37,547 nt of DNA from Candidatus Cloacimonadaceae bacterium. GTDB taxonomy: Bacteria; Cloacimonadota; Cloacimonadia; Cloacimonadales; Cloacimonadaceae. The DNA is taken from the NCBI GenBank assembly GCA_030693415.1, contig JAUYAR010000160.1, positions 1 through 37,547 on the forward strand, written 5' to 3'. Shown here in pieces: positions 263 through 37,020 of this stretch (positions are counted from its first letter, which is position 1; the number at the start of each line of letters is the position of its first letter). The notes below the pieces were generated by a model that did not search any database, was not told the origin of the DNA, and saw only the letters and a list, made by a program, of their open reading frames with translations. A program made the position numbers and the translations under genes.

Positions 263-282
263 AGCCGAATCGGAGCTCGGCT
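263..282 (-). terminator. weak hairpin after guaA
   Basis: AGCCGA (263-268) pairs with TCGGCT (277-282) about 45 nt past the guaA stop. On the minus strand no T-run follows directly; the nearest A/T-rich stretch begins several bases later. It may be a weak or Rho-assisted terminator. Confidence 0.25.
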
Positions 283-323
283 TCCCAATCCAAACAGCAT
301 GGTAGTGCCTTGAATCTTATGTC

Positions 324-15948: not shown

Positions 15949-15982
15949 ATGAACTGACGGGGACGTCGGTAACTCCAATTCC
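15949..15982. repeat. ACCGACG-type hairpin repeat, diverged copy
   Basis: The 18-nt hairpin ACTGACGGGGACGTCGGT (15953-15970) matches the 23541 and 36861 copies except for one C-to-T change, which turns a C-G pair into U-G and keeps the stem. The flanks (ATGAA before, TAACTCCAATTCC after) are also shared in part. Confidence 0.75.
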
Positions 15983-16094: not shown

Positions 16095-16120
16095 TGTAGC
16101 GCAGCATGCCGATGCTGCGG
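16095..16120. repeat. GTAGCGCAG hairpin repeat, copy 1
   Basis: The stem is CGCAGCAT (16100-16107) and ATGCTGCG (16112-16119), with loop GCCG. It belongs to the same family as the copies at 20346-20374 and 20406-20434. Confidence 0.8.
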
Positions 16121-20345: not shown

Positions 20346-20374
20346 CTGTAGCGCAGGATGCCGATCCTGCGGAA
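20346..20374. repeat. GTAGCGCAG hairpin repeat, copy 2 (covarying)
   Basis: The stem is CGCAGGAT/ATCCTGCG (20352-20359 with 20364-20371) around loop GCCG. Relative to copy 1, one G-C pair replaces C-G at the same position, so pairing is kept. Confidence 0.85.
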
Positions 20375-20405: not shown

Positions 20406-20434
20406 TTCCGCAGCATCGGCATGCTGCGCTACAG
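20406..20434. repeat. GTAGCGCAG hairpin repeat, copy 3 (inverted)
   Basis: This is the inverse orientation of copies 1 and 2. Its stem CGCAGCAT/ATGCTGCG matches copy 1. Together with copy 2 it forms an imperfect inverted repeat (27 of 29 identical) 32 nt apart, between the convergent alr and vor genes. Confidence 0.85.
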
Positions 20435-21787: not shown

Positions 21788-22867
21788 TTAAAAACAAGCT
21801 TCCAGCTTGGCTTTGATCTCTGCGGGGGTGAAGACGATGCCGCCAACCTTGCCCCAAAACTTAATCGGCACTTTGCCGGCAACAGCGATCTTGACATCGT
21901 CTAACATTTGTCCCGTATTTAATTCAAAGACATACACTTGCTTGACCTTCTTTCCAATCGCGGCGTGGATCGCTGCGTAGGGATATGGCCAGCAGGTGAT
22001 GGGTCGGATGAGCCCGATGTTTTTTCCTTCGCAGTTGAGTTCGTGGACTGCGGATTTGACGATGCGTGAGGCGGTGCCCCAGGCTACGCAGAGGATCTCG
22101 TTGTCGTCGTTCACGTTATACTTTTCATAGCGCAGCTCGTCGCGGTTTACGATGGCATATTTGGCAAAGAGCTGGTTGACGTGTTTTTCAAGCACGAGCG
22201 GGTCAATCTCGAGAGAATTGATCTCATGATGGTGTTTGGAGTCACCGTCTTCATTTGGACAAATACACCAAGAATCGTGTTGTTTGCCAAGTTCTTCCAT
22301 TTCCTCGGCGCTCTTGGCGGGCTTGAATTCCACCGGCTCCATCATTTGCCCGAGCATGCCGTCCGCGAGGATGAGCACTGGATTGCGATATTTATCCGCC
22401 AATTCGAAAGCTTCGCTTGCCATGTCTGCGAATTCCTGGACGGAACTTGGGGCAAGGACGATGCAGCGGTAATCTCCGTGTCCACCGCCTTTAGTGGCTT
22501 GAAAATAATCACCCTGGGCGGGTTGGATGTCTCCCAAGCCGGGACCTCCGCGTTGGACATTCACGATTACGGCGGGAAGCTCGGAGCCGGCAAGATAGGA
22601 AATGCCTTCCATTTTCAACGAAATGCCGGGGGAGGAAGATGAGGTCATGACGCGTTTTCCACAGCCCGCGGCGCCATAGACCATGTTGATGGCGGCGATT
22701 TCGCTCTCCGCTTGGATAAATGTCCCGCCTACCTTGGGCATCATTTTTGCCATGTATTCGATCAATTCGCTTTGCGGGGTGATTGGATAAGCAAAATAGA
22801 GGCGACAGCCCGCACGGAGAGCGGCTTCGGCAACCGCTTCGTTTCCTTTCATCAGAACTTTAGACAT
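21788..22867 (-). CDS. vorB: 2-oxoacid:ferredoxin oxidoreductase, alpha subunit (VorB type)
   Basis: This 359-residue alpha subunit begins MSKVLMKGNEAVAEAALRAG and contains FAYPITPQSELIEYM, TFIQAESEIAAINMVYGAAGCGKRVMTSSSSPGISLKMEG and PVLILADGMLGQMMEP, which match the 3-methyl-2-oxobutanoate (VorB) group closely. The enzyme oxidatively decarboxylates branched-chain 2-oxo acids to acyl-CoA with ferredoxin reduction, useful in valine/leucine fermentation. It lies 9 nt after the ferredoxin gene. Exact substrate specificity needs biochemistry. Confidence 0.94.
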   Translation of the reverse strand: MSKVLMKGNEAVAEAALRAGCRLYFAYPITPQSELIEYMAKMMPKVGGTFIQAESEIAAINMVYGAAGCGKRVMTSSSSPGISLKMEGISYLAGSELPAVIVNVQRGGPGLGDIQPAQGDYFQATKGGGHGDYRCIVLAPSSVQEFADMASEAFELADKYRNPVLILADGMLGQMMEPVEFKPAKSAEEMEELGKQHDSWCICPNEDGDSKHHHEINSLEIDPLVLEKHVNQLFAKYAIVNRDELRYEKYNVNDDNEILCVAWGTASRIVKSAVHELNCEGKNIGLIRPITCWPYPYAAIHAAIGKKVKQVYVFELNTGQMLDDVKIAVAGKVPIKFWGKVGGIVFTPAEIKAKLEACF

Positions 22868-23148: not shown

Positions 23149-23240
23149 ACTATTTCTTTTGCAAATGCCTAAGTTTCCATCGGAAAGAGACATACGGAAT
23201 CATGGGATATCTCCTTTTGAGTGAGCGGATGAACTCTTAA

Positions 23241-23339
23241 AAGAGATGAGATATGAGGTAAGAGAGATGAGATAAGCTGGCGCCGAACGAAAGCAATCAG
23301 CAGCACATTGCTTATATCACATCTCATATCTCATCTCTT
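23241..23339. repeat. 17-bp inverted repeat of AAGAGATGAG type with nested stems
   Basis: AAGAGATGAGATATGAG (23241-23257) is exactly complementary to 23323-23339. Inside are a second copy of AGAGATGAGATA (near 23264), a GATAAGC/GCTTAT pair and a 6-bp AGCAAT/ATTGCT pair (23292-23297 with 23306-23311). Confidence 0.75.
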
Positions 23340-23495
23340 ATATCTATCTCCCATCCCTTCTCCATCCCCTGCCCGCCTTATCCTGATGATCAAAGCATCC
23401 GCATTGCGGTACAGGCTCTTAGCGCGTTTTTCGTATGAAGGAAGCGTCTGTGTATAGTGCATTACGCAGTTAAATAGTTAGTCAAGTAGGTAAGC

Positions 23496-23570
23496 GGATA
23501 TGGAACTACCGACGTCCCCGTCGGTTTCAACCGCGCATGAACCGACGGGGACGTCGGTAATTCCATATCC
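23496..23570. repeat. 31-bp inverted repeat made of two ACCGACG hairpins
   Basis: The arms 23496-23526 and 23540-23570 are complementary at 30 of 31 positions around a 13-nt loop. Each arm itself contains the 18-nt hairpin ACCGACG/CGTCGGT (23508-23525 and 23541-23558), so either one long or two short stems can form. Confidence 0.9.
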
Positions 23571-23647
23571 GTCCTGCGTACTAATCAAGGTTGAACCTTA
23601 TCTCATCTCTCTGCTCTTGCTCTGCTATTACTCTGCTTTCCTCTGTG
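23537..23647. repeat. ~110-bp intergenic block shared with 36857-36964
   Basis: Beginning with ATGAACCGACGG, this segment continues through ACTAATCAAGGTTGAAC and CTGCTCTTGCTCTGC to TTTCCTCTGTG. The block at 36857-36964 has the same order with only a few substitutions and small indels. Confidence 0.85.
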
Positions 23648-23671
23648 ATAAACTCATCTTTCAAATCTCAC

Positions 23672-25387
23672 TCACATATTCACAAAAATGCTCACGTTGG
23701 CGCAGCGGATTTGATCTTCCACCCAGAGGTCAAACCAGTCTTCGTTCAGGGTTCGCTTGTAAGTCTCGCGCAATTGAACCGGTGAGACGACGGCATTTTT
23801 ATCAATGCGGTGATTTTTGACAAATGGTATGAGAATAGTGGTTCCGGCTACATAGACTTGCGTAGCGGACTTATCCAGATAGCGGCGGATGGCATCATAG
23901 TAGATCATGCCGACTTTGATGTCCCCCAAGGGAGTGGTGAAACTCATGGAGGGGACTGATTCCTTGGAAGAGTGGGGGAGAGCGGCGAGATTGATAATAC
24001 CGGCAGTTTGGTTACGCAGCCATTCGGAAGCGGTTACTTTGGCGATCTCGATGCTTTTGCTCTGTCTGAGAACGGCGACAATATCATTTTGCACGGAGGA
24101 AAGAGGGCGCACGCGGTTGAGCTGATTGTCCGTCATCTGCACGACCACCCAGGCGAAAAGCTGGTTTGAATATATCGGAGTAAATATGTGTCCGCGCTTT
24201 TTATCGTGAAGCTCTTTAAATATCGTCTCGAGGATGGCGCTGTCTCCGATCCAGACGGATTCAGGATTGAGGTTTTTGATTGGAACATAGCTCAAAGACA
24301 TTTCGTTGGCGGCGTTTTCCATGCCCACCGTCTGAGCAAGCTGGTAAAGCCTTTCTGCTGCGCTTCTTGATCTTTTCACGCTGGCGGCTAACGGCGATGC
24401 GACAATGGTAATGGTATTGAAACTGGTCATGCTCTTCGTGAGCTGTTCCAGGTGATAGATCGTGAATGAGCCGGAATCTTCAACCGGCGGGCTATAATCG
24501 CTTTCTTTCATAGCGGAAAACATGGCATAGAGCTTGGGATCGAGATCGGCATTGCGGAGGAAACCGCTGTTTTTGAGGATGATGCCCGGATAATGGACTT
24601 TGTGTCTGGCGATCACGCTCTGAGCGGGTTCTCCGCTTCTGAGCTCCGTAAAGATGGAATCCGTCACCGCTGCTGCATAGATCATGTCTTCCGCGCTTGG
24701 TCTGACAGGGAGGAGGATATAGGCGAGAGCAAAGCTCTCGTCCATCCGATATTGATCTAAGTTTTTCTGATAATATTGGGTGATTTCGCTTTCGGAGATA
24801 ATGGGTTGGATATTGGTGGCATCGACGATCACCCAATCGATATCGGCTTTGCCGGCAAGGACTTGTGTGATTCGCTTGCTTTCTTTTTTGGTGAGCATTT
24901 TCCGGTCGATGAGTTCGTTTTTGAGTTTCAAGATCGGGATCAGATAGTCGAAGTAGTGCTTGCGAACCGGCAGCAGGTTTTCCGGAGTGTCATAGAGGAG
25001 GGATTGCAGGTAGATGTTGTAGTCGAAAACGCCGTTTACCATGAATCGCGGTGAGGTCTTCAGGTATGGCGGGATATTGGTTTTGAGGGTGTCGATCATT
25101 TCCTGGGGACTGACGCGGATGCCGTATTTTTTAAAATTGTCTTTGAGGATCACGTGTTTGGTGATGTTTCTCCAGGTTTGGCGCATGATTTCTTGTTTCT
25201 CGTCGATGCCTGGCGCGCGGTTGTTTAGCATCCAGAAATTTTCATAGTGTCCGCGATTAGCCGCAATAAATTCGTCATAGGGGATGGGGGTGCCATTGAC
25301 CTTGCCGGCGAGCCGACCCTGATTGACGGAACAAGCGGTCAGCAGTGCCATCAGGATGATTAACAGTGCAGGGATGATACGTTTCAT
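23672..25387 (-). CDS. SurA/PpiD-like lipoprotein (peptidyl-prolyl isomerase family)
   Basis: This 571-residue protein has a lipobox signal (MKRIIPALLIILMALLTAC, Cys19) and a SurA-like N-terminal domain (VNGTPIPYDEFIAANRGHYENF...). It then has repeated rotamase-like segments of the PpiC/parvulin type, with an EITQYYQKNLDQYRMDESFALAYI stretch as in SurA/PrsA. Parvulin active-site residues are not clear enough to assert catalysis. It probably acts as a periplasmic chaperone for outer-membrane proteins, anchored by lipid. It begins 11 nt after the mutS stop and is the last gene of the rho-SPOR-mutS operon. Confidence 0.85.
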   Translation of the reverse strand: MKRIIPALLIILMALLTACSVNQGRLAGKVNGTPIPYDEFIAANRGHYENFWMLNNRAPGIDEKQEIMRQTWRNITKHVILKDNFKKYGIRVSPQEMIDTLKTNIPPYLKTSPRFMVNGVFDYNIYLQSLLYDTPENLLPVRKHYFDYLIPILKLKNELIDRKMLTKKESKRITQVLAGKADIDWVIVDATNIQPIISESEITQYYQKNLDQYRMDESFALAYILLPVRPSAEDMIYAAAVTDSIFTELRSGEPAQSVIARHKVHYPGIILKNSGFLRNADLDPKLYAMFSAMKESDYSPPVEDSGSFTIYHLEQLTKSMTSFNTITIVASPLAASVKRSRSAAERLYQLAQTVGMENAANEMSLSYVPIKNLNPESVWIGDSAILETIFKELHDKKRGHIFTPIYSNQLFAWVVVQMTDNQLNRVRPLSSVQNDIVAVLRQSKSIEIAKVTASEWLRNQTAGIINLAALPHSSKESVPSMSFTTPLGDIKVGMIYYDAIRRYLDKSATQVYVAGTTILIPFVKNHRIDKNAVVSPVQLRETYKRTLNEDWFDLWVEDQIRCANVSIFVNM

Positions 25388-36395: not shown

Positions 36396-36470
36396 GGGTG
36401 AGAGATACAGAGTTGTTTTTCACCACAGAGAAACAGAGCGATCAGAGCAGAGACATGAGAGAAAAGACCT

Positions 36471-36648: not shown

Positions 36649-36675
36649 CGGGTTCACCCGTTCACCTTCCCCCAT

Positions 36676-36735
36676 AGCATTACGGAATCAATACGGACTC
36701 ATTACGGACTAAGTCCGTATTGACTCCGTATTGCT
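36676..36735. repeat. 24-bp hairpin with TACGGA repeats
   Basis: Arms 36676-36699 and 36712-36735 are complementary at 22 of 24 positions. The 12-nt loop contains another ATTACGGACT, giving three ACGGA units. No T-run follows, so a terminator is unlikely. Confidence 0.8.
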
Positions 36736-36856
36736 CACGGGGAAGGATATAATTAAAACTGCTAAGCGTTTGAAATTAAAAGCAATTGGATGATATAGGC
36801 AGATTTGGGGAATTGACGCTATGGGTGTTTGTGTCGCTTTTATTGGGGTTGCACGT

Positions 36857-36964
36857 ATGAACCGACGGGGACGTCGGTAATTCCATATCAGTCCTGCCCA
36901 CTAATCAAGGTTGAACTTCATCTGATCTCTCATCTCTCTGCTCTTGCTCTGCTTTCCTCTGTGT
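36857..36964. repeat. Second copy of the 110-bp intergenic block
   Basis: It includes the hairpin ACCGACGGGGACGTCGGT (36861-36878). See the copy at 23537-23647. Confidence 0.85.
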
Positions 36965-37020
36965 TTAGATCTTCTCTGATCTCTCTGTTTCTCTGTGGTG
37001 ATAATCAACGGAGAAAGTTG

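Follow-up and report, generated by a model that had tools for sequence, protein, structure and literature searches.

The window analysed here, a stretch of 37,547 nucleotides that makes up contig C160 in the genome (2.81 Mb in 185 contigs) of an uncultured Candidatus Cloacimonadota bacterium, carries at 23495-23571 a near-perfect inverted repeat lying between two genes of the reverse strand. Upstream of it in the direction of transcription is a gene for a SurA-like / PpiC peptidyl-prolyl isomerase (23672-25387, - strand), and downstream is vorB, encoding a 3-methyl-2-oxobutanoate dehydrogenase subunit (21788-22867, - strand), the element thus sitting 3' of the one and 5' of the other, as an earlier note on this DNA had placed it. 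The order mutS-SurA is kept in the relatives examined, the genes that follow SurA differ, and in none of these relatives does vorB adjoin the SurA-like gene. The exact site of the element is without an orthologue among them, and the SurA-vorB gap therefore affords no empty-site comparison.

The arms of the repeat (23495-23526 and 23540-23571) are each 32 nt long, complementary at 31 of 32 positions (97%) and separated by 13 nt, a frame slightly wider than the 31-bp repeat with 30 of 31 matching positions from which the work began, and which was itself borne out. Each arm holds its own hairpin of the form ACCGACG-N4-CGTCGGT, again as had been claimed. In the left unit (23502-23525, + strand) a GGAA tag at 23502-23505 is followed by a spacer and the stem-loop ACCGACG-TCCC-CGTCGGT at 23508-23525, and in the right unit (23541-23564, - strand) the tag is the complement of TTCC at 23561-23564 and the stem-loop occupies 23541-23558. 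The proposal that either one long or two short structures can form agrees with folding of the 77 nt and of its halves: as single-stranded DNA the whole element is predicted to adopt one long hairpin at -38.3/-38.9 kcal/mol (z about -11 to -12), and either half by itself a hairpin of 7 bp at about -8 kcal/mol. Two REP units of the type that we call A thus stand tail to tail with their GGAA tags outermost, which is the arrangement of a REPIN: an inverted REP pair with outer tags that can fold as a single hairpin. A search of Rfam with the window element gave no match.

Two further copies of the hairpin, at 15953 and 36861, bring the number in the window to the four originally counted, against a chance expectation of 0.09 and with none of 100 shuffles reaching four. 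The copy at 36861-36884 (- strand) is a single type-A REP with the exact consensus GGAATTACCGACGTCCCCGTCGGT. That at 15953-15976 (- strand) is a degenerate single REP with a GGAG tag, in which the C-to-T change that had been noticed (ACTGACG...) does preserve pairing, as a T/U-G pair on the + strand. The flank at 23572-23617 is common to the 36861 copy and forms part of an 84-nt block (23534-23617 against 36854-36937, 89% similar) that extends beyond the span 23496-23570 described in the earlier note.

The genome-wide search which that note had advised revealed a large family, with 147 palindromic sites in the source genome at one mismatch or fewer and 236 at two or fewer, where the reversed pattern gave 10. 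From aligned copies the oriented type-A unit is GGAATT-ACCGACG-TCCC-CGTCGGT-TC, and beside it stands a sister unit, type B, GGAACG-CCGACG-TCCC-CGTCGG-CG; the genome has 145-150 sites of the former and 79 of the latter, numbers that are approximate and likely underestimates since REP clusters are suggested to break the assembly. Copies do lie unusually often near contig ends in this genome (for example on C2, C17, C20 and C22). Controls for the type-A and palindrome counts returned between 0 and 10 sites, and the oriented type-A pattern had a single match, with 2 mismatches, when 124 further genomes from the phylum were searched. Type A accordingly has the features of a REP in the broad sense, namely a palindrome of 20-40 bp, more than 100 copies per genome and a largely intergenic distribution: of 47 sites, 14 were called as lying within ORFs, and these were mostly short ORFs, several of them covering tandem REP arrays. 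In the loci examined, A-B pairs are frequent, either with tags facing, the gap then commonly being 7-8 nt, or tail to tail at a distance of 76-112 nt, and tail-to-tail A-A pairs with outer tags occur five times, the pair in the window included; at one locus (L050) five units form a 72-bp tandem array. The oriented unit had no match among IMG/VR contigs and a 101-bp stretch none among plasmids, so neither a phage nor a plasmid origin is indicated. One narrow, joint-term literature search found no description of REPs in Cloacimonadota.

Three genes of the Y1_Tnp family (PF01797) are present in the source genome, and one of them, on contig C29 (L017:1366-2007, - strand, 213 aa), is a RAYT gene bracketed by members of this same abundant family, with A/B units forming three blocks at one flank and two at the other. 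Its product scores above the cut-off for Pfam Y1_Tnp (PF01797) and slightly below the curated cut-off of 80 for NCBIfam REP_Tyr_transpos (76.8 bits), its best match in the PDB is E. coli TnpA_REP (4ER8, E=2e-8), and it carries the HUH motif H120-V-H122 and Y185-ILD-N189-P190, the latter being the Y---NP that is the signature of class 2 Y1 proteins (PMC6006769). A second gene, on contig C45 and 42% identical to the C29 RAYT, has another palindrome, GGGAAGCCGAATTCCGATTCGGC, on both sides, of which the genome contains 29 sites, so that each of these two transposases has a REP family of its own. The third (contig C71, L018 1000-2100, 187 aa) is without the W-Q guide motif of the E. coli type and is flanked by a long repeat, CTGAGACTTCGCTTTAACCCAAAACTCCGCC, also found near the C45 RAYT. 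When an alignment of RAYTs was used to scan genome contigs, 17 named loci were returned, mostly from Cloacimonadota; the same scan with a single RAYT as query found nothing.

Beyond the source genome, the closest relatives of the C29 RAYT are two genes in genome G028 (on C23), at 53% and 46% identity, and both are bracketed by hairpins with a different stem, the same ACGTCCCCGT core and a GGAG/GGAA foot. Given that these relatives are bounded by variants sharing the core, transposase and palindrome co-vary. G028 is also the only other genome of the family rich in GACGTCCCCGTC, being second with 37 sites against 206 in the source genome. Across the family, 14 of the 19 RAYT genes for which both flanks are available have the same hairpin on either side, against 32 of 2100 random positions (1.5%).

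Together these observations make it very probable that the element is a REPIN from a REP family specific to this genome (about 150 type-A and about 79 type-B units) that is mobilised in trans by the C29 RAYT/TnpA_REP, a gene on a contig other than that of the window, in a comparison where the source genome is the sole one of its genus. By analogy with E. coli TnpA_REP and IS608, the C29 RAYT would bind the single-stranded GGAA tag and hairpin (GGAATT-ACCGACGTCCCCGTCGGT), for instance on the lagging-strand template, nick beside the tag through Tyr185 and rejoin the strand, so that REP pairs would be copied or moved into intergenic gaps. The window copy, lying between vorB and the SurA-like gene, would be one product of such spread, and any effect that it has on the genes beside it would be secondary.

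A role mainly at the level of RNA, in which the hairpin between these two genes acts as a transcription terminator or as a 3'-end stabiliser of mRNA and its copies have been retained on that account, is unlikely. It draws on the intergenic position of all three window sites, on the stability of the folded element RNA (-60 to -65 kcal/mol) and on the location of REP sites in the genome, where, of 32 sites with callable genes, 19 have a 3' end as their nearest gene end and 3' ends lie at a median distance of 163 nt. Yet a 5' end is nearest in the other 13, the preference for 3' gene ends is at most mild, and REPs in general show such a mild preference (PMC3733652). Moreover, a terminator scan predicted none at the element, which has no T-run; the element is nearly symmetric and type-A orientations are equally frequent in the genome (74/76); and in 21 relatives the 400 nt that follow the SurA-like gene contain no GACGTCCCCGTC site, the contig of two of them stopping very soon after that gene. 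Such a role would also leave the link with the transposase gene unexplained.

Still less probable is that the RAYT gene and its flanking composite repeats form an autonomous, TIRtron-like insertion sequence of which the dispersed palindromes are solo ends. The multi-hairpin composite blocks on both flanks of the gene do resemble those of TIRYT genes (PMC3733652), but they consist of a pseudo-palindromic unit copied in direct orientation and do not form a single terminal inverted pair, one copy of the gene stands against about 150 palindromes, and the related C45 gene has its own, different palindrome. That the repeat is a local duplication or a chance inverted repeat of no wider meaning is almost inconceivable, and is excluded by 145-236 copies where controls gave 0-10.

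Among described systems, the REPINs of P. fluorescens SBW25 (PMC3116915) share with ours the inverted REP pair with outer tags and one long hairpin, the clusters and tandem arrays, and a cognate RAYT gene beside a cluster of the same REPIN; they differ in their tag, which is GTGG/GTAG where ours is GGAA, and two units, A and B, alternate here. The REP/BIME elements of E. coli and their TnpA_REP (yafM; 4ER8) likewise combine a Y1 HUH transposase, which the C29 RAYT matches in sequence, with flanking REPs of related subtypes (Y/Z2, comparable to A/B), although tag and guide residues differ in the C29 system. Subclass 2.6 and class 3 of TnpA_Y1 (PMC6006769) resemble it in having, around a Y1 gene, REP-like hairpins that are without a GT[AG]G foot and have copies elsewhere in the genome; however, their tag is CnGA and not GGAA, the HuH-Y spacing is 63 residues in the C29 RAYT where the median for subclass 2.6 is 82, and the signature of class 3 is Y----Q in place of Y---NP. 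TIRtrons and their TIRYT genes (PMC3733652) are similar in the composite palindromes around a RAYT-like gene and in moderately abundant solo copies, and dissimilar in that the blocks here are direct repeats of a pseudo-palindrome in which the GGGGWSAS motif was not seen by eye. The element is real and its kind, REP/RAYT, is a known one that explains it well; what sets it apart is the unusual GGAA tag, to which an alteration of the enzyme plausibly corresponds.

Most descriptions of REP/RAYT pairs come from Proteobacteria, where the palindromes carry a GTAG tag, and in canonical REPs, those of the GTAG superfamily, the stem has a GT[AG]G tetranucleotide as its foot. The A and B units lack this foot: 59 of 65 type-A units examined have GGAA, and 36 of 40 type-B units GGAA or GGAG. 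Feet other than GTRG have been noted for no group apart from subclass 2.6 and class 3, and H101 is among the listed tag-contacting residues of E. coli TnpA_REP (PMC6006769). In alignment, E. coli W94, Q95, E100, H101 and R104 correspond to W164, A165, D170, R171 and R174 of the C29 RAYT, which retains the W and R of the GTAG-contacting set and has E replaced by D, Q by A and H by R. Automatic scoring of feet covered 68 Y1 proteins, almost all from Cloacimonadota, in which the residue aligned to E. coli H101 was also read. Where that residue is His, all 28 scorable genes have GTA/GTGG feet; where it is Arg, 9 of 11 have GGA/GGG and 2 have GTA (Fisher p 2.6e-7, computed over sequences that are not independent). 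As a control, the flanks were read backward and gave 16 GTA hairpins and 14 of the GGR kind, where forward reading had given 102 and 37. The GGR genes fall mostly in one clade of the tree, with 3 changes, and independent contrasts of tag against residue 101 provided only 3 independent pairs, mostly reflecting one shift. Because the GGR genes are largely one clade and the sequences non-independent, the association cannot establish cause. It is quite possible, if a little short of probable on this comparison of sequences, that a clade of Cloacimonadota RAYTs switched the tag that it reads from GTA/GTGG to GGA/GGG via His101->Arg, with Q95 free to vary, and that tag specificity in REP systems resides in a small, re-writable patch of protein.

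In this little-studied phylum, most of the RAYT genes examined are bracketed by palindromes of their own, and one clade with a different tag is also altered in a region of the protein known to contact the tag. Were the tag switch causal, these genes would supply natural substrate-enzyme pairs for studying the choice of REP by a RAYT, and a route into the co-evolution of a domesticated transposase and its repeats.

The window holds several other repeats. Members of a second REP family with the canonical GTAG tag (GTAGCGCAGSATGCCGATSCTGCG) lie at 16096-16119 (+), 20348-20371 (+) and 20409-20432 (-); this family has 184 copies in the source genome and 50 in genome G014, where a RAYT gene (L186) is flanked by them. 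No cognate RAYT for it was found among the three Y1 genes of the source genome, so that the family is possibly orphaned, or its RAYT gene lost in assembly. A third family is GGGAAGCCGAATTCCGATTCGGC, the one that goes with the C45 RAYT, of which the window has one copy at 264-286 (-), with 2 mismatches. Pyrimidine-rich blocks (TCTCATCTC / CTCTGCTTTCCTCTGTG) and 'CACCACAGAGAAACAGAG' blocks occur at 23590-23670, 36920-37000, 23238-23350 and 36412-36451, and such blocks adjoin REPs repeatedly, including REP copies elsewhere in the genome. Finally, between glmS and the next gene, positions 36665-36746 contain a 35-nt inverted repeat (86%) with ATTACGGACT/AGTCCGTAT units.
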